Assembly (NCBI RefSeq): GCF_004361815.1 | Contig: NZ_SNWA01000001.1 | Coordinates: 744,001-808,000, forward strand | Direction of reading: 5' to 3' | Origin: Paraburkholderia sp. BL10I2N1 | GTDB taxonomy: Bacteria; Pseudomonadota; Gammaproteobacteria; Burkholderiales; Burkholderiaceae | DNA: 64,000 nt | Part shown: positions 1-16,336 of the stretch, piece by piece | How positions within the stretch are numbered: the stretch's first letter is position 1 | Layout: each line of letters begins with the position of its first letter | Translations under genes and position numbers: made by a program | The notes under the pieces: model-generated | What the model saw: only the letters and a program-made list of their open reading frames with translations | Databases searched by the model: none | What the model was told of the DNA's origin: nothing

Positions 1-497
1 TCGGTCTGCGTCGCGTAGTAGTCCTGGAAGCGCTGGATGGGGCCGGACACCAGAGACGTGAAGTTCAGCACGTAGTTGAGGTAGACGACTGGCGAGATAC
101 GCACCAGCAAGCCTGGGCTGCGTGCATCGATGATCAGGTGCAGCATGCGGAAAAATACGTACGACACGCCGATCGTCACATACGGATGGTCCAGCAGAAG
201 GACCGACGGCACGAAGGCGTATCGCTTCAACCAGAAGAACATGACGATCATCAGCGCAAGCAGCGGCACGAAGACTGGCAGCCCAGGCTTTGCCTGCATT
301 GCCCGTGCGCCCGCGAAGCCCACCCCAAGGAACGCGGCGAACGGCACCAGCGCGGCCGGGTCATGCGAAAACGTCGACAGGAACGAGAGGTTCACCAGCA
401 CCAATACGAGGTTCTGCCACCTGACGGAGCGCGACAGGTTGAAGACCAGCGCCGCCACCGCCGCGAACGCGAGGAACTGGAATGATGGAACAATCAC
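1..497 (-). CDS. MBOAT family O-acyltransferase (AlgI/DltB-like), 3' part missing
   Basis: Only the first ~165 codons are present; the gene runs off the left edge. The start is a GTG at 497, preceded by a GGGGGAG ribosome-binding site five bases upstream, and lies 13 bp after the stop of the SGNH gene. The visible protein is a series of hydrophobic segments (FQFLAFAAVAALVFNL, ALVPFAAFLGVGFAGA, PVFVPLLALMIVMFFWL), then GVSYVFFRMLHLIID and LNFTSLVSGPIQRF, which match the GIS(Y/F)-type and (A/S)GPI-type segments of the AlgI/DltB/PatA MBOAT family. Such proteins move an acyl group across the inner membrane onto a polysaccharide or other acceptor. The active-site His lies in the missing part and cannot be checked. 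Downstream of FkbH, ACP and SGNH genes it is probably the membrane step of an EPS-decorating cassette (inference). Confidence 0.8.
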   Translation of the reverse strand, partial: MIVPSFQFLAFAAVAALVFNLSRSVRWQNLVLVLVNLSFLSTFSHDPAALVPFAAFLGVGFAGARAMQAKPGLPVFVPLLALMIVMFFWLKRYAFVPSVLLLDHPYVTIGVSYVFFRMLHLIIDARSPGLLVRISPVVYLNYVLNFTSLVSGPIQRFQDYYATQT

Positions 498-510
498 GAT
501 GCTCCCCCGG

Positions 511-1671
511 CTACGGCGTATTGCATGAGTCGAAAGCGGCGATGCCGCTGTGCGACAGACTGGCGATGATCCCGTGGGCCACCGCCTGCGACCCGTCTTC
601 GTTCAGGTGGTTGTCGACCGGGTAATAGAATCGTGCGGGATGTGTCTCGTGGCTGAAGGCTGTGAACAGGTCGACGTAACGGACCCCGTGCCGCTGCGCG
701 ATCACGCTCATCGCACGGCCGAGCGCAAACGGATCGACTCCTGATGGCAACGGCTGCGTCGTCAGCAACTCGGCCTGCGCGCGCTGAGGAATGACGACCA
801 GCAGCAGCGGCACACCCGCCATGCGAAACCGGTCGGCGACATCGCCGAGCAACTGGTCGAACGCCGCGAGCCGTTGCTGCCACGCGCGCGAAAAGGGCTG
901 GCGCAGGAAGTCCGCCTTGTCCCCGTAGCGCAGATACATCGAGACCTGTATCTCCGGATTCTCGAACATGAAATGTTCCGCCACCGAGATCGCGCGACTG
1001 TCCTGCACCATTCCCCTGGCCACGCCCAGCAGGTCTGGGTGTGCCCTGGGTACGCCGGCGGTCCCGGTCGGCGCGGTCGCCGCGACCCGCTTCAGACCGG
1101 CCATCTCCCCGTCGGGCAGAGTCAGCTTCTCGAGGTCGAAGGGCGCAACGACCAGCATCGCGGCGTCCGGCCGAAGGCGCAGCGCCGGGCCGACGCGGGT
1201 CTGGAATTTTGCGAGTGGCAAGCCGGTGGTCCCGAGGTTTTGAAATTCGACCGGCCGGCTGCATATGCGCGACATTTGCGCCTCGCTGAGCGCTCCAAAC
1301 GAGTCCGCGTAAGCGACGCCACTGCCCTCCGCAAACGAGGAACCCAGGATCGCCACGCGCTGCGCCCCAGCCGGCTTCGGCCCGCACGCATCGGTGCTGC
1401 GGAAGCCGCATTCGTTGTAGTGATAGGTGATCCAGCCGGTTTCCGGAACCTTGACGCGCATCGTGCAGTTCGGCACGTTGGCAACGCCGAGCGCGTTGTC
1501 GCTGACGTGACACTCGCCGCCGGCGTGAGCTTCTGACCATGCCAGCCGTGTGCCCATTTCGGACACGAAGAACAGCAGCAGAACCGTCAGCACGACGATT
1601 GCCGGCAGCAGCACGTAGTCGCGCCGCGACAGCGTACATCCTGGTTGTTCGTGACGGCTGGCCATCCGCAT
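511..1671 (-). CDS. Membrane-anchored SGNH-hydrolase-like protein (AlgJ/AlgX/DltD-type partner of MBOAT)
   Basis: 386 residues. A single hydrophobic anchor (about residues 19-36, YVLLPAIVVLTVLLLFFV) is followed by a periplasmic domain. The SGNH block I is seen as ILGSSFAEG (Ser at about 111-112), and block V as DNHLNEDG, giving the Asp353/His355 pair. NECGFRS at 86-92 is the N-x-x-GFR segment common in this group. Proteins of this type are often encoded next to MBOAT acyltransferases and finish acyl transfer to a polysaccharide in the periplasm. The start is 3 bp after the FkbH stop, and the MBOAT start follows 13 bp after its own stop, so the three genes are surely one transcript. Whether it is a transferase, an esterase or a structural partner cannot be told from sequence. 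Confidence 0.78.
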   Translation of the reverse strand: MRMASRHEQPGCTLSRRDYVLLPAIVVLTVLLLFFVSEMGTRLAWSEAHAGGECHVSDNALGVANVPNCTMRVKVPETGWITYHYNECGFRSTDACGPKPAGAQRVAILGSSFAEGSGVAYADSFGALSEAQMSRICSRPVEFQNLGTTGLPLAKFQTRVGPALRLRPDAAMLVVAPFDLEKLTLPDGEMAGLKRVAATAPTGTAGVPRAHPDLLGVARGMVQDSRAISVAEHFMFENPEIQVSMYLRYGDKADFLRQPFSRAWQQRLAAFDQLLGDVADRFRMAGVPLLLVVIPQRAQAELLTTQPLPSGVDPFALGRAMSVIAQRHGVRYVDLFTAFSHETHPARFYYPVDNHLNEDGSQAVAHGIIASLSHSGIAAFDSCNTP

Positions 1672-1674
1672 TCC

Positions 1675-3651
1675 TTAAGCTGGCAGTGCCACATCGAAGC
1701 CGGTCCGATGCACGACGAAATGCTCGACCGGACGACTGCGCGCGTCCGTCGAGATCTCCCAGACTGTCGTGCCGTCGTCGTGCTCGCCAATCGGAGTGAA
1801 GCCGAGCGCTGCGTAGTGATCCTTGACCAGCGCGTTACGCCCGGTCGGCACGTAGCGTCCAGTCACTCGCGCAATGCCACGCTGCGCCGCGTGCGTGAGT
1901 ATCTCGTTGAGCACCATCTGCTCGACCTTGCGGCCCAGCACCCGGCAACTCATCAGCCAGGTGTCGATATCCCACGTATCGGCCTCGCCGCTGTCGTTGA
2001 CGGCATCATACGCATCGCCGCGCAACGGGCGACAGATTACGACGGAGATCATCCCGTTGTCGCCGAATATGTCAGTCAGGCGCACCTGCAGCGTGAAGCA
2101 GCCGCCGTCCTCTTCGAGACGCACGACGTCGGCTTCGGTATAGCGGCGGGTCGTCAGGTTGAACTGGTTCGACTTGTTGATCAACTGGACAATCCGTGCG
2201 CGGCTGACGCCGTCGAACGGGGCGAACGTGATCCGCATCTCCAGCGACTTCAGATACGCGTCGACGTCGCCCGCTTGGTTCTGTAGCGCGATCCGGCGCG
2301 CGTTGTCCTCGTAAAACACCGCGCGTTGCCGGTCCTCGGCGACGAACGACAGCGCTTCGAAATAACCCGCCGCATTCAGCGTGCGCGCATACAGCGACGG
2401 ATCGTCGGGCAGTTCAGGTACCGCCACTTCGGGCAGCATCTCCCGCACCAGGTTGCGCTCAACCGGGTTATCGTCGAGAAACACCATCGATTCAAGGCCG
2501 AGCGACAGTTCCTGAGCGATCGCCCGAATATTGGTTGCCTTGTCGTTCCAGTTCGCCTGGAATACCGTAAAGTGGTGCTCGCGCAGCAGCATTTCCGGGT
2601 GCTTCTGGAACGGCAGTCTCGCGGTTTCATCATTATTCTTCGACGATACGGCAAGCATCACGCCGCGCTCGCGCAGCGCCAATGCCATCGTCTGAACGCT
2701 CAAATGCGCTTCGCCAACCACGTCGCCTTGCGCGATCCGGATTCCTTCAAGCAGGTCGTCGCCGATCACGCCGCCCCACAATGTGTTGTCGAGATCGAGG
2801 ATCAGCACACGTCGACTCTTGCCGCGCGCCGCACCTGACAGTCGGCCCAGATGGTCCGCATACAGCGGCAGGTAGGCGGCAGAAAAGGGATATTTAGCAA
2901 GATTCCATTGCGATGGTGAATGCCAGTTTGCGAGCCCCACTGTCTGCGCGAGCGTGTGGACGCCAAACAGGATCGCATCGCTGGCGGCGACGCGGCGCAC
3001 CAATTCGTGATTGAAGCGTTCGATCAGGTTGTGCAGCGTGCCCGGGATCGCCGCGTCGCGGCTGCCAAACAGCGTTTCCGGCGGCGGTGCAAGCGTCTGC
3101 AGGATCGGCAGCGCGTTGCCGTGCTGGCGCAGCCCTTGTGCGATGCTCTCGAGGTAGTGCAACGCGGCGTTCACACTGGCCTGTGCTCTTTCTTCATTGC
3201 CCGGTTCGACACAAAACGGCAGCCCCCGGTAATCGACCGCGACGAGCACTGCGTCGAGTTTCCCGGTGTTGATAGGCGAATCCGGTGTTAGCGCTTCCTG
3301 CGACACCTGGTCGTAACGACCCAACACGCAGTCGAGCGCAACGCCGTGTCGGGCGGCCGATGCGACCAGAGGCCAGGCGAGGTGATCGAGCGTGCAGTTA
3401 CTGACGATGCCGAGCCTGAACGGAGTCAGCGGCGCGAGCGGACGCCCATTGCGGCGCGCGGCAGCGATCGCCTTGCCGAGCCGGACCAGCTGGTTTTCGT
3501 CGAGTGCGTGGGTCGCGAGCCAACGTACCAGCTTGCCGGGATCGACGGCCAGGTCGTTCGCGTCGTTGTTTGCGAGTGAGCGGCACTGGGCGGCAAAATC
3601 GGCGGGCGGGGGCGGCAGCCATCCCAGCGAGGCATACAGATCATTGACCAT
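1675..3651 (-). CDS. FkbH-like HAD-IIIC / GNAT protein (acyl carrier protein loading)
   Basis: 658 residues. The N-terminal ~280 residues are an FkbH-type N-domain. The HAD phosphatase core carries motif I DLDNTLWGG (286-294), motif II SSKN (336-339) and the acidic motif FLDDNPVER (391-399). A GNAT-like region follows (about 480-640, ending ...FTPIGEHDDGTTVWEI). Known FkbH-family enzymes in polyketide pathways take D-1,3-bisphosphoglycerate, remove phosphate and load the glyceryl group on an acyl carrier protein. A small ACP gene lies 44 bp upstream and the SGNH gene starts 3 bp downstream, so this protein probably charges that ACP. The glyceryl substrate is an inference from the family; another hydroxyacyl group is possible. 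Confidence 0.85.
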   Translation of the reverse strand: MVNDLYASLGWLPPPPADFAAQCRSLANNDANDLAVDPGKLVRWLATHALDENQLVRLGKAIAAARRNGRPLAPLTPFRLGIVSNCTLDHLAWPLVASAARHGVALDCVLGRYDQVSQEALTPDSPINTGKLDAVLVAVDYRGLPFCVEPGNEERAQASVNAALHYLESIAQGLRQHGNALPILQTLAPPPETLFGSRDAAIPGTLHNLIERFNHELVRRVAASDAILFGVHTLAQTVGLANWHSPSQWNLAKYPFSAAYLPLYADHLGRLSGAARGKSRRVLILDLDNTLWGGVIGDDLLEGIRIAQGDVVGEAHLSVQTMALALRERGVMLAVSSKNNDETARLPFQKHPEMLLREHHFTVFQANWNDKATNIRAIAQELSLGLESMVFLDDNPVERNLVREMLPEVAVPELPDDPSLYARTLNAAGYFEALSFVAEDRQRAVFYEDNARRIALQNQAGDVDAYLKSLEMRITFAPFDGVSRARIVQLINKSNQFNLTTRRYTEADVVRLEEDGGCFTLQVRLTDIFGDNGMISVVICRPLRGDAYDAVNDSGEADTWDIDTWLMSCRVLGRKVEQMVLNEILTHAAQRGIARVTGRYVPTGRNALVKDHYAALGFTPIGEHDDGTTVWEISTDARSRPVEHFVVHRTGFDVALPA

Positions 3652-3695
3652 GCGACATAACCCCTCAGGCGGACATGGAAACGCTGGTTGACAGG

Positions 3696-3950
3696 TTACT
3701 GCCGCGTCGGCTGACTCCGCGATCCGATCAACTGGACAAATTCGCCGACGTCTTTCAGCCCGACGATGTCAGACGCGGCAAATTTGACGCCAAACGCCTT
3801 CTCGACAGTCAGCACGAGCCGAATGTGCGCAAGACTATCCCAGCCATCGATGTCGGCCGCAGTCGTATCGGGGTTCGCGACAATATCGTCATCGTCAAAC
3901 ACGTCGCGAAACACGTCCGTGAGCTTCGCGTAGATTTCCGATTGGATCAT
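3696..3950 (-). CDS. Acyl carrier protein
   Basis: 84 residues, the normal size for a free-standing ACP. The phosphopantetheine attachment motif is GWDSLAHIRL, with Ser39 as the prosthetic-group site. The N-terminal helix is acidic (DVFRDVFDDDDI), as usual. It is the first intact gene of the ACP-FkbH-SGNH-MBOAT block and stands away from any fatty-acid or polyketide synthase gene. It therefore probably carries the acyl group loaded by the FkbH-like protein and presented to the MBOAT protein, as DltC does for D-alanine. No phosphopantetheinyl transferase gene is nearby; a general one encoded elsewhere would be needed. Confidence 0.9.
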   Translation of the reverse strand: MIQSEIYAKLTDVFRDVFDDDDIVANPDTTAADIDGWDSLAHIRLVLTVEKAFGVKFAASDIVGLKDVGEFVQLIGSRSQPTRQ

Positions 3951-4978: not shown

Positions 4979-6307
4979 TCAGTCGCCCTGCGTCGGCTCA
5001 AGCGGCGCCGCAACCGGACTCTCGTGCGTCAGGTCGTCTGCCTCGTTCAACCGACGGTTTTTGCGCGCAGTCGGCTCGCCCTGCGCACCTAGCTGCGCCA
5101 GTCTGTCGTTCAGGCAGCCCAACACCGTCGTCGTTGCCAACGTGCGTTCGGCGAATTCGCGCGCAGCGATGCCGAGCGCCGCACGCCGTTGCGGATCAAA
5201 CGCAAGCGCCTCGATTGCCGCGACCAGCGCGGGCACGTTTTCTGGCGGAACGACGACACCACGCGGCGAAACCACACCGAACAGCTCAGTACCGGGGCAA
5301 GCCATCGCGACAATCGCACGGCCGCTCGCCATCATGCCGCCCAACTTCGACGGCATCACGAGGTCCGCCGCGCCGCCGCGTTGTGGCAGCACGTGGATGT
5401 CCGCCACGTTCAGCAGTTCATTCAACCGATCCGCTGGCTGGAGCGGCATGAACCGGCAATTCGGCAAGCTCGCGCAGCGCTCTTCGAGTTGCGCGTGGGC
5501 CGGTCCGTTTCCGCAGAATACGAAGCTTATGTCCTTGTGGTGCGCAAGCACCTCTGCCGCTTCGACTACAACCTCGAGTCCCTGCTTGGCCCCCATGTTC
5601 CCCGCATACAGGACAACAACCTGGGGCGTCGACTCGTCGAGACCGAGCAACTGGCGATAGTGGCGCGCGCCTGGTAATGGCGTGATCGTCCGTGTGTCAA
5701 CCCAGTTTGGCAAATGGTATGTCTTGAGCGGATCGACGCCCTTGAGGATCGCGCGCCCGGTCATCTTCTCTGACAGGCTCGACACGACGTCAAAACGACG
5801 TAGCAGCATGCGTTCGATTGCAAGCGCCACGCGCCGCGCCCGTTTGCCTCGCATCAGGCCGAGGTCGAACGCCGCGTCGACCTCATAGTCCTGAATGTGC
5901 AACCACGACTTCGCGCCGCTCGCGCGCGCCAGCGCCCACGATGCGGGTGCGCTCATGAGGCTCGGCGCAATGCTCATCACCAGGTTTGGCCGCCACACCA
6001 CGTGGGCAGCCAATATCGGCAACGACGACAGCGCAAAGGTTGCAAGATGCAGCAGGCGCTTGACACCCGTGGGCACCGCCGGAACCCACAAAGGCACACG
6101 CCGGATCTGCACGCCGCGCGTGAGTTCGATGCGATAGCGCCAGGGACTGTAGCCGGTCTCTATCCGCCACTGCGGATAGTAGGGTGGCCCACAGACGACG
6201 CGCACCTCATGCCCTTCGGCGACCATCGACTCCGCCATCTCTGCGGTGTATTTGCCGATACCGGTGAGCTCCGGCGCATAGTTGAGCCCGACGATCAGAA
6301 TCCTCAT
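4979..6307 (-). CDS. wcaI: WcaI-type GT4 glycosyltransferase
   Basis: 442 residues from the chosen start MRILIVGLNYAPELTG at 6307, which has GGAGAGG just upstream; an in-frame upstream start would overlap the preceding gene and adds sequence unlike the family. The N-terminal signature LNYAPELTGIGKYTAEMAE and the WcaI-like context PPYYPQWRI are typical of the colanic-acid WcaI group. The C-terminal donor domain has YAGNMGAKQGLE, FCGNGPAH and PSKLGGMMASGRAIVA. It should add one sugar, probably from a GDP- or UDP-sugar, to the lipid-linked EPS repeat on the cytoplasmic face. It is the last gene of the manC-to-glycosyltransferase series. The C-terminal ~25 residues are a variable tail. The sugar specificity is not predictable. 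Confidence 0.85.
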   Translation of the reverse strand: MRILIVGLNYAPELTGIGKYTAEMAESMVAEGHEVRVVCGPPYYPQWRIETGYSPWRYRIELTRGVQIRRVPLWVPAVPTGVKRLLHLATFALSSLPILAAHVVWRPNLVMSIAPSLMSAPASWALARASGAKSWLHIQDYEVDAAFDLGLMRGKRARRVALAIERMLLRRFDVVSSLSEKMTGRAILKGVDPLKTYHLPNWVDTRTITPLPGARHYRQLLGLDESTPQVVVLYAGNMGAKQGLEVVVEAAEVLAHHKDISFVFCGNGPAHAQLEERCASLPNCRFMPLQPADRLNELLNVADIHVLPQRGGAADLVMPSKLGGMMASGRAIVAMACPGTELFGVVSPRGVVVPPENVPALVAAIEALAFDPQRRAALGIAAREFAERTLATTTVLGCLNDRLAQLGAQGEPTARKNRRLNEADDLTHESPVAAPLEPTQGD

Positions 6308-6366
6308 ACGCCTCTCCGTCATCCGTGCAGCACCTATGCGCCCAACTTTTGCCGCGACGCGCGTCG

Positions 6367-7512
6367 CTAGCTGGTCAACATCACCGCGCAGCCGCGTGCA
6401 ATGTTCGACGCCGCCGTCGGTGGATCGAAGCGCTGAATGACGCTCATGCAATGTTTCGCAGTCTCGCCGGTATCCGCGAACGCCTCGAGCGCCTTGAGCA
6501 AGGTGCGTCGCAACGAAGCGCCGTCGCCAGGTGCGAACGCGTAGCCCGTGACGCCATCAATCACCAGTTCGGGAACGCAACCGCAGTTGTCGCTCACGAC
6601 AGCGGGACAGCCGTGGTTCAGGGCCTCATTCACGACGAGACCCCACGGCTCGCTGATGCTAGGCAAGACAAGGCAGGTTGCACCGAAGTACTCGCGAGAC
6701 AGGCCTTCGTCCTGCAGACTGCCGACGAAGCACACCGAGGCACCTAATCCTTCATCGGCCACTCTCTGCTTCAACTGATCGCCGAGCGGCCCGGTTCCGA
6801 CGATGCGCAACTTCGCCTCGGGCACTTGCTGTCTGACCGCGGCAAAGGCGTCCAGGAGGGCCTCAACGCCCTTCTCCGCAGACAGTCGGCCCACGAACAG
6901 AAACACCGGATCCTGCCCGGCACGAAAACGCAGCCGGTCGTCGAGTGCGCTTTCCGGCGCGAACGACCACGGCAAAGCCGCCGCCTGGCACGGAATGAAG
7001 ATCCTGTCGCGCTTCGCGCCGAGCGACATGAGGTATTCGCGGCTGCGCTCGCCGAAGCCGAAATAGCCGTCGCACAGCGAAAAGAACACTCGCTTCGGGA
7101 TCGAGGTCAGGATACGATGCGGACGGTCACGGCCGGTCGAATCGCAGAACACCGCGCGCCGCTTGCCGGTCAGGATACAGACAAGCAGCATGGCCCAGTA
7201 CTCTGGACGGTGGTAGCCGGGCAACACCACGAGGTCGGCCTTCGCCCTGAAGACCTCCATGACGAGGCGATACGTCATGCGCCAAACCGGAACGTCCTCG
7301 TAGCAGCCGTTGAAAAGCTTGCGCATCGGATACCGGTGATACGAGTAGTCCACGTCCGAGAAGCCGAGCCGGAAATGCTCGGTATCGGAGATTTGCACAA
7401 TCGAATACTTGATCGCGCCAGCCGTAGAAATGGTGTGCAGCGCCGAGAACACCACTCCCTTATGACGCGACCACACGACGTTATGGAAGATCGTGACGGA
7501 GTTTGTCGTCAT
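6367..7512 (-). CDS. GT4 family glycosyltransferase
   Basis: 381 residues starting at MTTNSVTIFHN (7512), where ATG follows the fcl stop by one base (TGACATG); a longer in-frame reading would lie inside fcl and is rejected. The C-terminal GT-B donor domain is clear: FLFVGRLSAEKGVEALLDAF, LRIVGTGPLGDQL and the nucleotide-sugar loop PSISEPWGLVVNEAL, with the E-x7-E pair. It is part of the EPS operon between fcl and the WcaI-like gene (59 bp apart). Because it follows gmd and fcl directly, a fucosyltransferase role is a reasonable guess, not shown. Confidence 0.85.
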   Translation of the reverse strand: MTTNSVTIFHNVVWSRHKGVVFSALHTISTAGAIKYSIVQISDTEHFRLGFSDVDYSYHRYPMRKLFNGCYEDVPVWRMTYRLVMEVFRAKADLVVLPGYHRPEYWAMLLVCILTGKRRAVFCDSTGRDRPHRILTSIPKRVFFSLCDGYFGFGERSREYLMSLGAKRDRIFIPCQAAALPWSFAPESALDDRLRFRAGQDPVFLFVGRLSAEKGVEALLDAFAAVRQQVPEAKLRIVGTGPLGDQLKQRVADEGLGASVCFVGSLQDEGLSREYFGATCLVLPSISEPWGLVVNEALNHGCPAVVSDNCGCVPELVIDGVTGYAFAPGDGASLRRTLLKALEAFADTGETAKHCMSVIQRFDPPTAASNIARGCAVMLTS

Positions 7513-7513
7513 G

Positions 7514-8470
7514 TCAGACCGCCGCTTCGGAGTGAGTATCCGAGCCATAGCGCACCATGAAGTCCCGATAAGTCGCCTCGAGGCCCTCCCGCAAACCGAT
7601 ACTGGCGCGCCACCCCATTCGCGCGAGGCGCGACACATCAAGCAGCTTGCGCGGTGTGCCATCCGGCTTCGTGGTATCGAAAACGATCTGCCCATCGAAG
7701 CCGATTGCGACTGCGACCCGTTCTGCCACTTCCCGAATCGACAGATCCTCGCCGACGCCGACGTTCAGCAGACCGTCCGCCACCTCGTTCTCGAGCACAA
7801 AGACTGTGGCGGCCGCGAGGTCATCGACATGCAGGAACTCGCGGCGCGGCGTACCGGTCCCCCAGACGACCAATGAGCTCTCGCCCCGCACCTTCGCCTC
7901 ATGAGCCTTGCGGATCAGCGCTGGTAGCACGTGGCTGCTGCCTAGATCGTAGTTGTCGTTCGGGCCATAGAGGTTGGTCGGCATCAACGCGACGAAGCGG
8001 GTCCCGTATTGGCGGTTGTATGCCTCGCATAGCTTCACGCCCGCGATCTTCGCGATCGCGTAGGGTTCGTTGGTCGCCTCCAGCGCGGAAGTGAGCAGGT
8101 AGGATTCCTCGATAGGTTGCGTACAAGCCCTCGGATAGATGCACGACGAGCCGAAGAAAACGAGGCGTGCAACACCGGCCTCATACGCAGCGTGGATGAC
8201 GTTAACCTCGATAGCAAGATTCTGATGGATAAAGTCTGCCGGCTGCGTCGCGTTCGCGAGTATGCCGCCCACCTTGGCGCTCGCAAGCAGCACGATGTCC
8301 ACGCGTTCACTCGCAAAGAAGCTTCGCACGGCTGCCTGGTCAAGCAGATCCAGCTCGGCCCGCGTTCTCGTGATGATGTTGGTGTAACCGTCGGCTCGCA
8401 GCCGGCGTACCAGTGCCGAACCGACCATACCGCGATGGCCGGCGACAAAGATGTTCGCGTTCTTGTCCAT
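7514..8470 (-). CDS. fcl: GDP-L-fucose synthase
   Basis: 318 residues from ATG 8470 (MDKNANIFVAGHRGMVGSA); a GTG three codons upstream overlaps the gmd stop and is also possible. It is an NADPH-dependent extended SDR enzyme: the nucleotide loop is GHRGMVGSA, the catalytic Ser is in FFGSSCIYPR, and the YxxxK pair is YAIAKIAG. It performs 3,5-epimerisation and 4-reduction of GDP-4-keto-6-deoxy-mannose to GDP-L-fucose. It directly follows gmd, forming the two-step GDP-fucose branch fed by ManC. Length and motifs are normal for the family. Confidence 0.93.
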   Translation of the reverse strand: MDKNANIFVAGHRGMVGSALVRRLRADGYTNIITRTRAELDLLDQAAVRSFFASERVDIVLLASAKVGGILANATQPADFIHQNLAIEVNVIHAAYEAGVARLVFFGSSCIYPRACTQPIEESYLLTSALEATNEPYAIAKIAGVKLCEAYNRQYGTRFVALMPTNLYGPNDNYDLGSSHVLPALIRKAHEAKVRGESSLVVWGTGTPRREFLHVDDLAAATVFVLENEVADGLLNVGVGEDLSIREVAERVAVAIGFDGQIVFDTTKPDGTPRKLLDVSRLARMGWRASIGLREGLEATYRDFMVRYGSDTHSEAAV

Positions 8471-8475
8471 GTTCG

Positions 8476-9594
8476 TCACTCGTGATGTTCAAGGGCTGTG
8501 AAACCGGCGAGGGTGACAAGTGCGTCGCGGCGTGCGATCTGGTAGTCGGCGCGCACCATCTCCTTGACCAGTGCATGGAACGAGGTCGACGGCTTCCAGC
8601 CGAGCCGCACATGCGCCTTCGACGGATCGCCGAGCAGTGTTTCCACCTCGGTTGGCCGGAAGTAGCGCGGATCGACGCGCACGATGACGTCTCCCGGCGA
8701 CACGCGCACCTGCTTGCCTTCGACCGCGTCGACGACGCCGACTTCATCCACGCCACTACCTTCAAAGCGCACCGTGATGCCCAGTTCGACGCACGCATGC
8801 TGGATAAACTCACGCACGCTGAACTGCGCGCCCGTGGCGATGACGAAATCCTCCGGCCGTTCCTGTTGCAGCATCATCCATTGCATTTCGACGTAGTCGC
8901 GCGCATGACCCCAGTCGCGCAGCGCAGACAGGTTTCCGAGATGCATGTCGTCCTGCAGACCTACGGCGATACGCGAGATCGCTCGCGTGATCTTGCGCGT
9001 GACGAAGGTCTCGCCGCGCAACGGCGACTCGTGGTTGAACAGGATGCCGTTGCACGCATACATGCCGTACGCCTCGCGATAGTTCACGGTGATCCAGTAC
9101 GCGTAAAGCTTCGCGACCGCGTAGGGGCTGCGCGGATAGAAAGGCGTGGTTTCTTTTTGCGGCACTTCCTGCACGAGGCCGTAGAGTTCCGACGTCGATG
9201 CCTGATAAAAGCGTGTTTTCCTTTCGAGCCCGAGCATCCGGATCGCCTCGAGAATGCGCAGCGCACCTAGACCATCTGCGTTCGCGGTATATTCCGGTAC
9301 TTCGAACGAGACGGCAACATGGCTTTGCGCGGCGAGGTTATAGATCTCGTCAGGCAACACGCGCTGGATGATCCGGACGATGCTCGATGAGTCAGTCAGA
9401 TCACCGTGGTGCAGGAAGAAGCGTCGGTGCGCGAGGTGCGGGTCGCAGCATAGGTGATCGATGCGGTCCGTGTTAAACAGTGAAGTGCGCCGTTTGATGC
9501 CATGCACCTCATACCCTTTCTCGAGCAGCAGGTCGGCCAGATACGACCCGTCTTGTCCCGTCACGCCGGTAATCAAAGCAACTTTCCGACTCAT
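8476..9594 (-). CDS. gmd: GDP-mannose 4,6-dehydratase
   Basis: 372 residues. SDR N-terminus [20 protein letters not shown], then [28 protein letters not shown] and the catalytic Tyr/Lys pair in [16 protein letters not shown]. It converts GDP-D-mannose to GDP-4-keto-6-deoxy-D-mannose with bound NADP+. It overlaps or abuts fcl and lies 89 bp after the BY-kinase gene in the same direction. The gap upstream (9595-9683) holds no visible gene or strong terminator. The same intermediate can also lead to GDP-rhamnose, but the adjacent fcl points to fucose. Confidence 0.95.
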
Positions 9595-9683
9595 TGCGTT
9601 CCCCTCGTCGACCGTTTGACTGCGGTGCGCGCTGGCCGCATGCCAGACACGCGCGAAATCGGTATTGCTCAGCTTGCCCAGAC

Positions 9684-11909
9684 CTAGTCCATTCTTCCTT
9701 CGTATGCGTAGTAGCTTGCATAGGCGCCCCTCTGGTACGGCCGCGGCTGTGGCACATCGGTGAGCAGCAAACCGTTGAGCGTGACGCCGGCGTTGCTCAG
9801 GCGTTTGACGGCCTCCGAAATTTCCACCATCGGATGTCGTCCATGACGGACAACCATGAGCGCCGTGCCTACGTGCTTGCCTATCAGCGCGGCGTCTGTC
9901 ACCGCCAGTACGGGCGGCGTATCGATGACGACGAGCTCATAGGCCGCGGAGAAGTATTCGAGCAGCGAGCGGAAGCGCTCGCTCATCAGCAATTCCGACG
10001 GATTGCCCGGCAAATCGCCTCTAGGAAGCACATCAAGACCGGGCAGTACATTACGCACCACGCAGTCGCCCGGGTCGGCACCAATCAGCAGGTTTGAAAG
10101 ACCGGCCGCGTAGCCCATGCCGAAATGCCTGTGGATGTCGCCGCGCCGCATATCGCCGTCGATCAGCAGGACGCGCTTTTTGGCCGACGCGACCAGCGCC
10201 GCAAGGTTGACCGACAGGAACGACTTGCCCGCATCCGGTCGCGAACCGGTCAACATAATGATGTTGTTCCTCGAGGAGGCGAGCGCATTGTGCAGCGACG
10301 TGCGCAGGCTGCGCACCCCTTCGATCGCTACGTCGTGAGGTGCCTGCACCGCCAGCACGTGCACGCCTGCCCGCCGCTCGCCGACATTCTGTTGCATTCG
10401 CAGTTGCCCGCTGCTGCGCGGCACGATTGCACAGACTGGTAGACCGAGTGCACGTTCGATTTCCTGCGGATGCTGGACTCCCCCAAAGAGCGTCCGGCGC
10501 ACAAAGGCCAGCAGCATGCCGATAAAGAGCCCTATGCCGCCGCTTATGCCGATCACCAGCGGTCGCTGCGGACGCACCGGCTTGTCGGCAGGTTCGGCGT
10601 AGTCGACCACTCGCACGGTGCCGATCTGACCGGCCTTGACGATGCGCAGTTGCTGCGCGCTGTTGAGCAGGTTCGTATAAAGCTCGGTATCGACGCGCAC
10701 GTCTCGCAGCAGACGTAGCGCTGTCTGCTCGGTGTCGGGCAGTGAGGAAACGCTATGAGACAGTTTGCCCTGCACGCTCTGCAGCGCCCCGATTTGTGCA
10801 TCCAGCGCGGCGACAGACGGATGGGTCGCCGTAAACCGCTGCCCCAGTTCCACGCGTTGTTGCTGCAGGTCGATGAGCTTTGTCTTGTTGTCGACGATCT
10901 GCTGCAGGAGCAAGCGGCTTTCCTCGCTCAGATCGACTGTGCCTTGCCGGTTCCGAAACGTGTTGTAACGCTCCTCGGCAAGATCGAGTTCCTTGCGCAA
11001 CTGCGGCAGTTGCTGGTCGAGAAACGCCAGCGTATGTTCAGCCTCGGCCGATTTGCGATCGATGTCCTGCTGGACGAACTGACGCGCGATGCTGTTCACG
11101 ATCGCAGCCGTCAGTTCGCTGTTAGGCCCCTCGAGCGTGACTCCGATGATGCCCGACTGCACGGTGACCTCCACCACGCCGAGCGCGCGTTGCAGCTTGT
11201 CGACCGTGTCGAGCGTCGACGACCTCGTGAGCTCGAACTGGGTGCCGGGCCGCGCAGTGAGCTCGTCCACCCGTAAGCGCACGGGACCGGCAGGCGTGGT
11301 ACCGACCGCAACTTCCCCGGTGCGTGCCTGCAACACCACGACGCCCTTCCGGTCGCGCAACACATACGAGCCGCCCTCCTGCATCGTCAGCACGAACGGT
11401 TTGCCGTACAGATCCTTTGGTGTATCGAACAGCGTCACGCTAATCTGCTCGCCGCCCCAGGCGAAATTCCGCATGCCGAAGAGCGGTTCAGCAAGGCCGT
11501 CGCCGGCCCGGCGACTGGCAATGAAGCGGCCGACCACAGGGAAATAGCGCGGCGTCGCGGCGATGTCCAGATGCAGATCACGCACGGTCGCATCCACCAC
11601 TAATCGCGAGCGGATCAACTCGATCTGTGCCGCAGTCGGCGATTTCGAATCGAAGATGGAAGCGAGCGATTGCAGCGCATCCTTGTTCGCATCGGCGTTC
11701 GCATTGTTGCTGTCTTCCACCTGAATGACCGCATTGGCCTGGTACACAGGCCTCTGCAGAAAGGCGAGCGCCGCGCCGGCCAGAAGCGCGGCGAGCGTGA
11801 TCACCAAGATCATGCACCAGTGTTGCGACACCGCATCGAAGTAGTCCGACAGACGGAGCTCTTCAGTGCGGGCAGCATCGATATAGCGGTTTTCGAAGTT
11901 GGTAGCCAT
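9684..11909 (-). CDS. Wzc-type polysaccharide co-polymerase / BY-kinase
   Basis: 741 residues from ATG 11909 ([15 protein letters not shown]); a longer in-frame reading begins inside the exporter gene. Two membrane segments ([19 protein letters not shown] near the N-terminus and [21 protein letters not shown] before the kinase) frame a periplasmic coiled-coil domain of the Wzz/GumC type. The cytoplasmic kinase has Walker [10 protein letters not shown] (~555-563), Walker A' VLLIDGDMR (~580) and Walker B VVIDTPP (~661). The C-terminal tail carries five tyrosines (about 725, 730, 733, 734, 736) for autophosphorylation. It controls chain length and export together with the Wza-type protein encoded just upstream. 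A matching Wzb phosphatase gene is not in the window. Confidence 0.93.
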
Positions 11910-11992
11910 GTTGTCATGAACCCTGCACGACATTTTCATCAACCCGGAGCATCGCGCCGGTTCTGCATCGCCAGGCATTCCGGCGACGACGC

Positions 11993-13195
11993 TCATTTCG
12001 TCACGATCGCGGTAGTCAGCCCAGCGTTGACCAACGGGAGCAACAGGTTCAACACGCGGCTGAAGCGCACGAGACCGCTGCTGTCGATGTACACCACGTC
12101 CTTCGACTGAAGGTTGAACTGGTTCGCCAGCAGCATCGACACAGGTGACGTTGCATTCAGGTGATAGATCTCCGGTTTGCCACGCGCAGCGTCGCGAATC
12201 ACATAGAGTTCTTTCGCGTCGGCCGACCCCGGATTCACACTCCCGGCCTGCGACAGCGCTTCGGCCAGCGTCAGCTTGCCGTCGGTCATCGGCATGACCG
12301 TCGCCGGCTTACCGACCTCGCCCATCACGTAGACGCCATTGTCTTCACGCGACATCACGCGCAACATATCGCCGTTCTTCAGCATCACGCGCGACGGGCT
12401 TTGTCCGCTCTCGATCATCTGCGTGACATTGACGGGATACGACGTGCCGTCGCGCACGATCACGATTCGACTTTGATCAGCGTTTGGAGAAAAGCCGCCA
12501 GCCCGGTTGAGCGCTTCACTGAGGGTCATCGGAATATCATTGATGGTCTGCGCGCCGGGCGCCCGCACCTCACCGTCTACATAGATCTGCCCTGCGCGGA
12601 ACGATGTCACACGCACTGTCACCTGGGGTTTAACGAACACCTCGCTCAGGAGCCGGTAGATCTTGCGCTGCGCCTGATCAGCAGTTTCTCCCCCCACGTG
12701 TACGAGCCCCGCCGCGTCACCGGAGATATCTACCTTTCCCGCGTAGGGTAGCTGCACGTTGCCGTCGTGATCGACCACGAACCCTCCGGCCGCGTCCGAA
12801 GGACGCTGCGGGTTGCCGGGGGGTCCCACCGCGGCGGCCAGTTCCGGGTGATCCCAGACAGTGATCTGCAAGACGTCGCCAGGACCGATCCGATACGGAC
12901 CGGGCTCCCCGAACAGCGCGGAAGAGTCCGTCTTCTTTGCCTGTGCGGCCGCCTCGCGCATCTGGCGAAGCGATGTCAGATTGATGTCGGTAATCGGGAT
13001 CTGCTGCTCCACCGCTGGCTTTCCGTCCTCACCGCTGCTGACAGGCAAAGTCGGCGGTTGAACCATGCGCATGCCAGGCGAGACCATGCATGCCGACAAT
13101 GCGCCGCACACCGCGATGCTCCCGAGGGCGCGCACGCCGCCTGCTGCGGTGCGAACCGCGCTTGCCCAGAAAGCCTGTTGTTTTCCTAAGCGCAT
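11993..13195 (-). CDS. Wza-type polysaccharide export lipoprotein
   Basis: 400 residues from ATG 13195, with GAGG eight bases upstream; a GTG three codons earlier is less likely. Lipobox LSAC (in GALSACMVSPG) marks an outer-membrane lipoprotein. The Poly_export domain is seen as YRIGPGDVLQITVWDHPEL, followed by SLBB-type repeats (VRVTSFRAGQIYVDGEVRAPG... and GVYVMGEVGKPATV). The C-terminal FSRVLNLLLPLVNAGLTTAI is the amphipathic helix forming the outer-membrane pore. It is the translocon for the EPS made by this locus, encoded between the WcaJ-type and Wzc-type genes. Confidence 0.93.
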   Translation of the reverse strand: MRLGKQQAFWASAVRTAAGGVRALGSIAVCGALSACMVSPGMRMVQPPTLPVSSGEDGKPAVEQQIPITDINLTSLRQMREAAAQAKKTDSSALFGEPGPYRIGPGDVLQITVWDHPELAAAVGPPGNPQRPSDAAGGFVVDHDGNVQLPYAGKVDISGDAAGLVHVGGETADQAQRKIYRLLSEVFVKPQVTVRVTSFRAGQIYVDGEVRAPGAQTINDIPMTLSEALNRAGGFSPNADQSRIVIVRDGTSYPVNVTQMIESGQSPSRVMLKNGDMLRVMSREDNGVYVMGEVGKPATVMPMTDGKLTLAEALSQAGSVNPGSADAKELYVIRDAARGKPEIYHLNATSPVSMLLANQFNLQSKDVVYIDSSGLVRFSRVLNLLLPLVNAGLTTAIVTK

Positions 13196-13213
13196 TTGAG
13201 CCACCTCATTGAA

Positions 13214-14602
13214 TCAATAGGCATTGCTGTGCACCAGGCCCTTGACGAGGGTAGCGGCGATAATCTTCATGTCCAGCGCCAATGACCAGTTGCCGAGGTA
13301 GTACAGGTCATGCTCGACGCGCCGCTCCATCTTTTCAATTCGATCCGTTTCACCGCGAAAGCCGTTGATCTGTGCCCATCCGGTAATGCCCGGCTTGATC
13401 CGGTAGCGATGGTTGTATCCGGCCACCACCTTCTGATAGAGGTCGTCGTGTTCGAGCGCATGAGGCCGTGGCCCGACAACCGACATATCGCCTCGCAGCA
13501 CGTTGAAAAACTGCGGAAGTTCGTCGAGGCTGGTTCGGCGCAGGAACGCCCCGACGCGGGTGATGCGAGGATCATTGCGCGTTGCCTGGCTGACAGCTCC
13601 CGGCTTCTCCGTGTGCGCACGCATCGAGCGGAACTTGTAGATCGTGAAGACACGCCCGTCGGCGCCTTTGCGCTTCTGCCTGAATAGCACCGGTCCTCGC
13701 GACGACAGCTTGACCGCGGCGGCGATCACCAGCAGCACGGGCGCGAGACCAATCAGCGCGACAGCGGCGAACAGCCGGTCGAACATCTCCTTTTGCCTCT
13801 GTGCACCTTGCGATAGCGGCGACGCAACGAGGTTGATCGCCGGCGCCCCGAGCAGGTCGATCATGCCGCTGTCGAACATCGCCAGACTCCGCAGGTCCGG
13901 AAGGAAACGGATGTTGACCAGGTCGTTGCGCAGTTCCTTGACGCACTCGAGAATGGTTTTCTCTTCCGACAGTGGCAGCGCGAGCCACAACTCATGTACG
14001 TCCCGCGCGCGGAGATACTCGGCGAAGGCCTGCAACTGGTGGAAAACGGGTATGCCAGGAAACGCGGCTCCGGGCACCGGTGTGTCGTGCAAGACATCGA
14101 GGACGGCTGCCGTGCGAAAACCCGCAGCCGAACAGCTGTCGATCTTCCGCATGAGCGCGGCGGCATGTGCGCCACGTCCGACCACCGCCACCTCACGCAG
14201 GTTCATGCCGGCGTCACGCACCCGCGCCAGCACCCGGTGAACCAGCAGCCGGGACGCAATCAACAGCGCACCGGTCACGCCGGTCCAGTAAGCGAACCAC
14301 AACCGCGAGACGAAATCGATCCGATGCAGCGAGAACATCAGTAGCAGTGCGCAGGCCTGCACGACCAGCCAGGCGAGCGCAACCTGTCCTGCGAGCGCCA
14401 CCTTCGATCGTCCGCGCCATGAGTCGTATACCCCAAATGCCGGAAAGAGCGCCAGCGCGAACGCCGCCGCGAACGCGACGAATGCGCCATAGAAGCTGCG
14501 CTGCGCTATATCGTCGAAGCGGATCTGCGACGCGATCGCTGCGCCGAATGCGACCAGCACGACGTCGTGCACGCGCGCAGCCAATGCTTCAGGCTTGATC
14601 AT
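13214..14602 (-). CDS. wcaJ: Undecaprenyl-phosphate glucose(hexose)-1-phosphate transferase, WcaJ type
   Basis: 462 residues from ATG 14602 ([13 protein letters not shown]); a TTG at 14647 would give 15 more. Several N-terminal membrane helices and a CoA-binding-like domain ([13 protein letters not shown]) precede the C-terminal PglC/WbaP-type catalytic domain: [73 protein letters not shown]. The enzyme starts the EPS repeat unit by moving a hexose-1-phosphate, usually glucose from UDP-glucose, to undecaprenyl phosphate. GalU (22388-23248) could supply UDP-glucose. It follows manC closely (46 bp). Confidence 0.92.
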
Positions 14603-14648
14603 GTTTGCCACCCGATCTGCGTTGAAGGCGGTGAGAAAGCATCGCAAC

Positions 14649-16193
14649 TCAATTGCAGCGCCCGTAGGTGTCGTCGAAGCGCACGATGTCGTCTTCGCCG
14701 AGATAGACCCCGGACTGGACCTCGATGATTTCGAGCGGCACCTTCCCCGGATTCTCCAGCCGGTGACGCACCCCGAGCGGAATGAAGGTCGACTCGTTTT
14801 CGCTCAGGAGGAAACGCTCCTTGCCGCGCACGACGACTGCCGTGCCGCGCACGACGACCCAGTGCTCGGCGCGATGATGGTGTAACTGCAACGACAGGCG
14901 CGCTCCCGGGTCGACGACGATGCGCTTGACCTGGAAGCGCTCACCGCGGTCGATCGAGTCATAACAGCCCCACGGACGATGCACTTTCCGGTGCGCGTCG
15001 GCTTCCGGCGCGTGCTGAGCCTTGATCCGCCCGACGAGCCCCTTGACGTCCTGCACACGGGAGCGGTCAACGACCAGCACCGCATCCGCAGTCTCGACGA
15101 CGACCACATTGGTGGTTCCGACACAGGCGACGAGCCTCCCTTCCGAATGGGCATACGACGATGTCGCCCCCTCGAATACCACTCGGCCGCGAGCCACGTT
15201 GCCCGCTTCGTCCTTGTCCAGCGCCTCCCAGACGGCATCCCACGACCCCAGATCGGACCAGCCCGCGACGAGCGGCACAACCACGCCCTCGATCGCGTCG
15301 CCGTTCGGGCTCGCCGTCCCTATGCGTTCCATCACCGCGTAATCGATCGAGTCCGACGGCGCTTTCGCGAAAGCCTCCGCCTGCGGCAGAAAGAACGAAC
15401 CGTCATGCTTGCCTTCGGCAAACGCCGCAAGACATGCAGCGGACATCGCCGGTTGCAGGCGCTTGACCACCCCAAGCCAGACGCTGGCGCGCACCACGAA
15501 AATGCCGCTGTTCCACCAGTACGCACCCGACGCAACGTACTGGTTTGCCAGTTCGAGCGCGGGCTTTTCGACAAACCGTTCGATACGATGAACACCACCT
15601 TCAAGCACCCCGCCCAGCCGTATGTAGCCGAAGCCGGTGTCAGGCCGCGTCGGCGGTACGCCGAGCGTGACGAGCGCGCCACGCTGCGCGTGCTCTGCCG
15701 CTATAGCGATGGCCTGCTGGAACGCCACGATGTCGAGAATGGCGTGGTCGGCCGGCATCGCGACGAGGATCGCGTCGTCGCAGTTGGCTGCCGCCAGCGC
15801 CGCCGCGAGCGTCAATGCGGGCGCCGTGTCGCGCCTTGCCGGCTCGACCACGAGGTGCGCCGGGACGTCGCGTTCACGCAACTGCTCGGCCGTCACGAAG
15901 CGATGCTCACTGCCGCAAACGACGATCGGCATCGGCCGCACCTCCCAATGCGCGGGAAAGCCTTTCATCCGCCCAACCGTCTCCTGCAGCAACGAATTCA
16001 CGCCGATAACATCGATCAGTTGCTTGGGATAGTGTTCGCGCGATAGCGGCCAAAGGCGGGTTCCCGAGCCGCCCGCGAGTATGACCGGGGCTATGCTCAA
16101 ACGACGTGCCGTGGGCTCGGAGCCGGCCAGATAAATCGTGTCTTCTTCCCCTCCAGCGTCCTTATCGACGTCGACGGAATGAATTATGTTCAT
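14649..16193 (-). CDS. manC: Mannose-1-phosphate guanylyltransferase / mannose-6-phosphate isomerase
   Basis: 514 residues from ATG 16193, which has AGGAG nine bases upstream. The N-terminal pyrophosphorylase has VILAGGSGTRLWPLSREHYPKQ, and FVEKPALELA with WNSGIFVVRA follows. The C-terminal cupin isomerase domain has HRPWGCYDSIDRGERFQVKRI and LSLQLHHHRAEHWVVV. This bifunctional type II enzyme makes GDP-mannose, the precursor for gmd/fcl and possibly for direct mannosyl transfer. It is the first gene of the EPS operon proper. The ~140 bp upstream (16194-16336) should hold its promoter; none was recognised with confidence. No phosphomannomutase gene is in the window. Confidence 0.95.
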   Translation of the reverse strand: MNIIHSVDVDKDAGGEEDTIYLAGSEPTARRLSIAPVILAGGSGTRLWPLSREHYPKQLIDVIGVNSLLQETVGRMKGFPAHWEVRPMPIVVCGSEHRFVTAEQLRERDVPAHLVVEPARRDTAPALTLAAALAAANCDDAILVAMPADHAILDIVAFQQAIAIAAEHAQRGALVTLGVPPTRPDTGFGYIRLGGVLEGGVHRIERFVEKPALELANQYVASGAYWWNSGIFVVRASVWLGVVKRLQPAMSAACLAAFAEGKHDGSFFLPQAEAFAKAPSDSIDYAVMERIGTASPNGDAIEGVVVPLVAGWSDLGSWDAVWEALDKDEAGNVARGRVVFEGATSSYAHSEGRLVACVGTTNVVVVETADAVLVVDRSRVQDVKGLVGRIKAQHAPEADAHRKVHRPWGCYDSIDRGERFQVKRIVVDPGARLSLQLHHHRAEHWVVVRGTAVVVRGKERFLLSENESTFIPLGVRHRLENPGKVPLEIIEVQSGVYLGEDDIVRFDDTYGRCN

Positions 16194-16336
16194 GATTTGC
16201 ACTCCTACCCTATATCGAAACTTGCGTGGGCCCACGACGATGAAAGCGTCGAGGATCCTGCCAGTGGTTCAGGTCACTTCGGGTGTAGATCAGTACCGGC
16301 ACGCCGTTGGGTAATTGCGCAACGCGTACCCGCGTG

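Follow-up and report, generated by a model that had tools for sequence, protein, structure and literature searches.

A putative carrier-protein-fed MBOAT-SGNH acylation cassette with an FkbH-type loader in Paraburkholderia sp. BL10I2N1

In the Dlt system (DltA-DltC-DltB-DltX-DltD), which carries out the D-alanylation of teichoic acids, helix HC of the membrane-bound O-acyltransferase (MBOAT) DltB binds the carrier protein DltC, the contacts given in the accessible part of the source being Met302, Val305, Ile306, Met309, Lys312, and Arg317 (PMC11035591). The shuttle motif of Dlt is carried by DltX. According to the accessible sections of another paper, the Tyr of the C-terminal motif of PatA accepts the acyl group and its SGNH partner can use the acyl-Tyr, and MBOAT/SGNH pathways besides Dlt are said to have no similar carrier protein (PMC12148441). 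In this work, we describe a four-gene cassette encoding an acyl carrier protein (ACP), an FkbH-type loader, an SGNH/AlgX-like protein, and an MBOAT, localized at positions 1–3950 of the window, i.e., the whole analyzed stretch of 64,000 nucleotides (contig NZ_SNWA01000001.1 of Paraburkholderia sp. BL10I2N1, positions 744,001–808,000). This cassette probably represents a carrier-protein-fed MBOAT-SGNH acylation system in which FkbH serves as the loader. No account of an MBOAT system fed by FkbH and ACP was found in the open-access papers searched for FkbH with MBOAT, exopolysaccharide (EPS), or O-antigen; in these papers, FkbH and MBOAT co-occur only in work which, judging by titles and the opening lines of abstracts, concerns aeruginosin-type peptides.

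The four-gene cassette and its proposed mechanism

The analysis confirmed that the ACP, FkbH, SGNH, and MBOAT genes create a single tight unit on the minus strand, with intergenic gaps of 44, 3, and 13 bp, respectively. The open reading frames (ORFs) are as given in a preliminary description of the stretch, and each of the four families scored over its model cut-off:

3696..3950, minus strand: ACP, 84 aa; PP-binding 29.4 bits (cut-off 20.8); Ser39 in GWDSLAHIRL
1675..3651, minus strand: FkbH-type loader, 658 aa; TIGR01686 274.5 bits (cut-off 146.65)
511..1671, minus strand: SGNH/AlgX-like protein, 386 aa; ALGX 36.3 bits (cut-off 26.5), Lipase_GDSL_2 34.3 bits (cut-off 32.9)
1..497, minus strand: MBOAT, first 165 aa inside the window; PF03062 78.5 bits (cut-off 27)

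Ser39, which the preliminary description had placed in a GWDSL motif, is indeed present in the ACP, whose best relative in a sequence search of solved structures was 2lml, a putative ACP (E 5e-17). The FkbH protein is composed of an N-terminal region, a HAD-IIIC phosphatase, and a C-terminal part carrying WLMSCRV. Its residues 191–437 match the solved structure 3slr, its nearest named relatives (77% identical) come from Burkholderia and a Burkholderiales metagenome-assembled genome (MAG), and Asp286, Asp288, Lys371, Asp393, Cys569, and His612 are invariant across 48 aligned FkbHs. We take Cys569 to be the Cys of the FkbH C-terminal domain. The SGNH/AlgX-like protein, with an N-terminal hydrophobic segment, GSS at residues 110–112, and DNH at 353–355, is by its sequence probably a periplasmic acyltransferase; two rough SGNH patterns fit only 15 and 27 of the 36 partner proteins from loci of the window's type (type A, see below).

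The part of the MBOAT gene lying left of base 1, whose completion had been left to later work, was retrieved from the genome to which the window belongs. The remaining 940 bp are located at C1:743061-744000 (L002:9061-10000), and the full ORF (C1:743061-744497) encodes an intact protein of 478 aa with both family His residues, i.e., His275 and His323, the counterparts of two His that are invariant in 46 aligned relatives. A search of the 9.2 Mb genome with PF03062 found no other MBOAT. The only solved relatives detected by sequence were DltB chains (best E 6e-27), and the protein ends with IVYKTF, which contains Tyr475 and is a variant of the acyl-shuttle motif FxYxxF with Ile replacing the first Phe.

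The individual catalytic steps are inferred, as are the glyceryl group and the acceptor, and we propose the following route. FkbH would take the acyl group of D-1,3-bisphosphoglycerate and strip the 3-phosphate, so that the phosphopantetheine arm of the ACP would end up carrying a glyceryl thioester; by analogy with FkbH family chemistry, our best guess as to the cargo is glyceryl. Just as DltC docks on DltB, the charged ACP would then bind the cytoplasmic face of the MBOAT through the stretch after the RWHxTLS motif, and the MBOAT would pass the glyceryl group to its own Tyr475 in the shuttle motif on the outer side. Finally, the SGNH protein would move the glyceryl from this Tyr to its active-site Ser and on to a periplasmic polysaccharide, here most likely the adjacent EPS. 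The parts, the catalytic residues, the conserved gene order, and a DltB-like stretch replacing a PLGG-type motif, all established at the level of sequence, are the basis of this proposal.

The gene set and the acyl donor of its MBOAT in other genomes

Scanning of named genomes with the window FkbH gave 96 confirmed relatives. Among the best 80 of these 96, which were kept, an ACP was present within 3 kb in 72, an MBOAT within 6 kb in 65, and both in 62; the set is biased, because it was retrieved with the window's own FkbH. The hosts included Burkholderia, Acidobacteria, Bradyrhizobium, Rhizobacter, Sphingomonas, Xanthobacter, Myxococcales, and others. A fairer sample was obtained with TIGR01686, by which 100 neighborhoods were fetched, with higher-scoring places favored: 62 of the 95 places over the cut-off in 398 phylum genomes, 18 of 30 in 299 family genomes, and 20 of 27 in 201 genomes from the genus of Sphingomonas hylomeconis (L096).

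These 100 neighborhoods were graded by bits against a local profile built from the 80 relatives. At 550 bits or more (n = 42), an ACP occurred within 3 kb in 36, an MBOAT within 6 kb in 29, and both in 26; for the 31 of these FkbHs with 5 kb on either side the numbers were 28, 24, and 23, with no ketosynthase (KS) motif. Between 400 and 550 bits (n = 22) there were 21 with an ACP and five with an MBOAT, between 200 and 400 bits (n = 20) seven and one, and below 200 bits (n = 16) none of either. This showed that the linkage of FkbH to ACP and MBOAT weakens with distance from the cassette profile. In the reverse direction, seven of the eight non-self matches of an MBOAT search (E ≤ 1e-30; phylum and family samples) lay no farther than about 2 kb from a match to FkbH, the sole exception being G325.

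With the use of local profiles, 194 stretches were typed into A (36), B (27), C (43), and those without an MBOAT within 6 kb (88); two type A entries, L021 and L223, are one and the same record. The gene order described for the window was found again elsewhere: type A, to which the window belongs, shows exactly ACP-FkbH-SGNH-MBOAT in 28 of its 36 loci, from Burkholderia to Acidobacteria, with a median gap of 5.5 bp and gaps of at most 100 bp in 95 of 104 cases. The type B loci comprise MBOAT, GDSL protein, ACP, and FkbH genes, often plus VOC or SDR genes, and the type C loci an MBOAT without either SGNH profile nearby, often plus a methyltransferase or MaoC-SDR.

Several other arrangements were also observed. 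Two genomes of the window's genus (L102:2747-8140 and L103:6282-11590) carry the type B set, with VOC beside the ACP, instead of type A. In five stretches of the phylum sample (L166, L171, L182, L183, and L195), the FkbH domain lies within frames of approximately 2,600–2,750 aa, and the KS pattern is absent from four of these stretches. The Paroceanicella profunda plasmid (L352:7687-15721) carries ACP, FkbH, methyltransferase, and VOC genes, with mprF farther away and no MBOAT annotated in the stretch.

The likeness of the cassette MBOATs to DltB concerns especially the docking place. The window MBOAT aligns to DltB without gaps in this region, with Leu, Ile, and Met at the positions of V305, I306, and M309, and across 26 type A MBOATs a hydrophobic residue (L, M, I, V, F, A) occupies them in 25, 23, and 25 cases, respectively. 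Most MBOATs not linked to FkbH carry PLGG or a near variant where DltB has its DltC-binding helix. When counted from RWH, the Gly pair of PLGG falls at V305-I306; the aligner instead opens a gap at this place, meaning that the PLGG-type proteins lack part of the helix. The Dlt-like mechanism is supported, since the cassette MBOATs have the DltB-like hydrophobic stretch instead of the PLGG-type motif.

The association of this motif with ACP genes was counted in an MBOAT sample found by Pfam in 120 genomes (89 distinct MBOATs, 71 examined). It is a non-random set of 11 known FkbH neighbors (including the window), 20 low scorers, and a last 40 fetched after the motif had been noticed; two were unscored by the pattern, L288 as too short and L327 as unreadable (the same protein as L275, PLGG-type by alignment). 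An ACP lay within 5.5 kb of none of the 47 PLGG-type MBOATs and of 15 of the 22 others (Fisher p 3e-10, kinship ignored), as judged with an ACP profile whose training set consisted of cassette ACPs, so that other ACPs could have been overlooked. Among the 57 rows of FkbH-unlinked MBOATs, 56 were readable, 45 of them PLGG-type, and four had an ACP; the 13 FkbH-linked rows included two PLGG-type ones (L169 and L305, both without an ACP) and 11 with an ACP. In three stretches (L290, L299, and L300), an MBOAT without a PLGG-type motif has an ACP nearby and no FkbH was found in the stretch, L300 additionally holding VOC and methyltransferase genes. These are possibly carrier-fed MBOATs with other loaders, or their FkbH lies beyond the stretch.

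The scoring was repeated on a tree, in which 123 of 128 rows could be used and DltB was entered as carrier-fed from the literature. The motif was lost in 76 rows with an ACP and 11 without, and kept in 36 rows without an ACP and none with one. In three of the 11 (L032, L061, and L078), the contig ends no more than about 150 bp from FkbH, at the expected place of the ACP; the five unscored rows fit on alignment (four FkbH-linked type C MBOATs without the motif, and L275 with it). Moreover, the tree contains a branch of 49 rows (SH-aLRT 89), all FkbH-linked, which takes 25 of 26 type A, all 19 type B, and five of 34 type C MBOATs and none of the 46 unlinked rows; this test depends on the unlinked sample, because all A, B, and C rows were found through FkbH. 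DltB and a few small MBOATs are placed near the base of this branch, on long branches and with an uncertain position. In the tree set, every one of the 45 type A/B MBOATs and 31 of the 34 belonging to type C end in the pattern [FIVLM]xYxx[FY], and most unlinked MBOATs share it, so the pattern marks the mechanism and not the donor.

It should be stressed that a number of results weigh against the carrier-fed reading. When kinship is considered, only six independent pairs remain on well-supported branches, on average 5.4 of them as expected and none opposed (median p 0.0625). Seven of the 22 MBOATs without a PLGG-type motif show no ACP, none of the seven lying beside FkbH, and 29 of the 34 type C MBOATs together with the type A protein L080 fall outside the cassette branch, among the unlinked ones or elsewhere. 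Nor is the DltC interface closely reproduced: the position of DltC Glu40 is Arg44 in the cassette ACP, those of DltB Lys312 and Arg317 are Phe and Ala in the window MBOAT, and 13 of 19 type B MBOATs have a Lys or Arg in place of Ile306. The link between loss of the PLGG-type motif and the presence of an ACP is thus strong in counts and, by lineage, suggestive, not proven. As to acyl-CoA as the donor of the MBOAT, the features of the cassette suggest otherwise. The one-to-one correspondence with the Dlt roles drawn in the preliminary description has been strengthened by the reciprocal gene linkage, the C-terminal shuttle motif, and the DltB-like stretch at the docking place.

Acceptor, cargo, and significance

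The candidate acceptor pathway is encoded next to the cassette:

4979..16235, minus strand: adjacent EPS-type genes (Pfam scan)

The ten proteins of the right flank comprise two glycosyltransferases (GTs), GMD, an epimerase, Wzc, a Wza-type export protein, an undecaprenyl-phosphate (UndP) glucosyltransferase, ManC, an AraC-type regulator, and one unmatched ORF, and the six of the left flank a GT, a GMC oxidoreductase, PhyH, a WcaF-like protein, and two Acyl_transf_3 proteins. EPS-type genes are therefore present on both flanks, and the cassette lies inside an EPS-type locus. The GMC oxidoreductase and PhyH dioxygenase genes of the left region (L002:4045-7079) suggest an extra sugar or acyl modification.

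It is possible, although not the option we prefer, that the acceptor is another envelope glycan (lipopolysaccharide, periplasmic glucan, peptidoglycan, or glycolipid) and that the EPS neighborhood is incidental. The separate Acyl_transf_3 and WcaF-like acetyltransferases of the window's locus could by themselves serve the EPS, and type A cassettes are usually situated away from EPS genes: among the 22 type A loci whose flanks were complete, only seven, one of them the window's, show an EPS hallmark, and GT group 1 was found in nine of 150 flanking proteins (23 loci), followed by Wzy_C (3), GT family 2 (2), Hexapep (2), Polysacc_synt_3 (1), and scattered others, these Pfam figures being taken among the first 25 of 76 and the first 25 of 90 families. 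The Burkholderia copies, with an FkbH 77% identical to that of the window, lie near BacA (L022) or near exonuclease VII, an esterase, and a histidine kinase (L023). All these data speak against the EPS as a general acceptor. On the other side stand the EPS-type genes around the window cassette, the cassette beside Wzc and Wza in L221, which belongs to the window's family, and the GT upstream of the cassette on the MAG contig L021. Type B loci with full flanks show at least one hallmark in 19 of 21 cases (type C: 14 of 37) and two or more in 15. The type B figure is flattered, because the flanks of the window and of type B loci supplied part of the material for the hallmark profiles.

The EPS neighborhood as a constant feature of the cassette was thus rejected for type A by the flank counts. 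Type A is a portable unit, and its neighbors do not reveal the acceptor; an EPS acceptor is not a general property, because elsewhere the cassette is mostly away from EPS genes. Of the interpretation put forward in the preliminary description, the mapping of Dlt roles is supported, and the placement of the acyl group on EPS holds as plausible for this genome, where the adjacent EPS is the best guess for the acceptor; it does not extend to the cassette in general.

A further, rather unlikely option is the same machine with another cargo, i.e., a small hydroxyacyl or phosphorylated acyl unit, or a glyceryl group oxidised, epimerised, or methylated on the ACP. Variant loci carry suitable genes within 6 kb (VOC in 14 and SDR in nine of the 27 type B loci, methyltransferase in 12 of the 43 type C loci). 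Type A is mostly devoid of modifier genes (VOC in six, methyltransferase in one, and SDR in none of 36), yet MaoC is near in eight of 36; no VOC, methyltransferase, MaoC, or SDR was found among the scanned neighbors of the window cassette. Furthermore, the FkbH pathways are proposed, in the accessible part of PMC7489565, to begin with 1,3-bisphosphoglycerate, which counts against another cargo.

The reading in which ACP and FkbH build a polyketide or lipid block, as do the polyketide-serving FkbH proteins described in the accessible part of PMC7489565, with an SGNH/MBOAT pair that acts separately as an acetyltransferase, is very improbable and was rejected: no polyketide family, a sign of the polyketide pathway named as a refutation in the preliminary description, occurs among the 16 neighbors scanned (six left, ten right), the KS motif (our own pattern, unchecked on known ketosynthases, which fired in two of the 100 sampled stretches, neither at 550 bits or more) is present in none of the 42 neighborhoods with at least 550 bits and none of the 80 related loci, the order of the four genes is mostly constant and only a few bases separate them, and the cassette MBOATs lack the PLGG-type motif.

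If the carrier-fed reading with an FkbH loader is true, the cassette represents a second design of the carrier-fed kind, this one Gram-negative and charged by another loader, which would link the decoration of surface polymers to a glycolytic intermediate. It would also offer candidate genes for the glyceryl groups of bacterial polysaccharides, and the PLGG-type motif would be a sequence marker that may predict MBOATs using carrier-bound acyl groups. One known glyceryl substituent is the L-glycerate of gellan, according to the accessible part of PMC9104527; in the sample from the genus of Sphingomonas hylomeconis, an MBOAT was found within 6 kb of FkbH in ten of 20 fetched stretches. 1,3-bisphosphoglycerate should yield D-glyceryl and gellan has L-glycerate, so a link to gellan would need an epimerase, and a VOC protein is possible in this role. 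Only tentatively may one go further and speak of a widespread, unnamed class of envelope acylation in Gram-negative bacteria, in which a glycolysis-fed FkbH forms glyceryl-ACP for MBOATs with a docking helix, the motif alone would separate carrier-fed from CoA-fed enzymes, and VOC variants could supply the L-glyceryl of gellan.

FkbH relatives were also found on plasmids (tblastn), in 68 records, 40 of them from Sinorhizobium. In one S. meliloti megaplasmid, CP050512, the order is a VOC-like ORF, MBOAT, a protein of 409 aa that has no match in Pfam and is annotated as a TonB-dependent receptor, ACP, and FkbH. Next come genes for RTX-repeat proteins, a polysialyltransferase-like protein, and a GT2, as well as a capsular gene. 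The MBOAT has no PLGG-type motif; its first family His is replaced by Asn and the second is kept. In the record of S. meliloti 1021 (L351:10206-12268), the FkbH match spans two overlapping frames, and in the RCAM1750 record it is one ORF. S. meliloti is genetically tractable, and this megaplasmid set makes the proposed system testable in a laboratory model.

Comparison with described systems

The formation of glyceryl-ACP in tetronate and methoxymalonyl pathways resembles the cassette in the FkbH family and the small discrete ACP, and by this analogy the first reaction is probably shared. The cassette FkbH exhibits the features of its family, i.e., TIGR01686 over the cut-off, the HAD Asp pair, and the C-terminal Cys. 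The difference lies in the partner, which in the cassette is a membrane acyltransferase pair; no KS, FabH-like, or dehydrogenase partner is present in the window cassette and no KS or FabH-like protein among the neighbors scanned. The nearest solved relative of the cassette ACP by sequence, 2lml, is presumably GmACP3 of Geobacter metallireducens, the study of which reportedly proposes in its title a role in lipopolysaccharide biosynthesis.

More similar are the PatA-PatB, AlgI-AlgX, and cellulose O-acetyltransferases of Gram-negative bacteria, in which an MBOAT with an FxYxxF-like C-terminus is accompanied by an AlgX-like SGNH protein. The cassette shows the features of such a pair, i.e., the conserved His, the C-terminal Tyr motif, and an SGNH protein with Ser and an Asp/His block. 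In contrast, the donor of these enzymes is acetyl-CoA, as shown (PatA) or believed according to the accessible part of PMC12148441, and 45 of 56 readable FkbH-unlinked MBOATs are PLGG-type, whereas the cassette MBOAT is without this motif.

Strict membership in Dlt was rejected on model cut-offs: the MBOAT gained 175.1 bits with the DltB model TIGR04091 (cut-off 375), and the ACP 20.2 bits with TIGR01688 (cut-off 52.35) and 22.6 with PRK05087 (cut-off 68), both DltC models. The cassette also shows no DltX gene, its shuttle motif being the MBOAT's own C-terminus, its observed hosts are Gram-negative groups, and no AMP-binding family, i.e., no DltA-type ligase, was found among the 20 proteins scanned, cassette included, FkbH filling the place of the loader. 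In both systems, however, a carrier, a loader, an MBOAT, and an SGNH protein are encoded together; DltB is the sole solved relative of the MBOAT, and the docking stretch and the acyl-Tyr shuttle motif are alike. The cassette would therefore work like Dlt without being Dlt, because its loader is an FkbH protein and not an AMP ligase.

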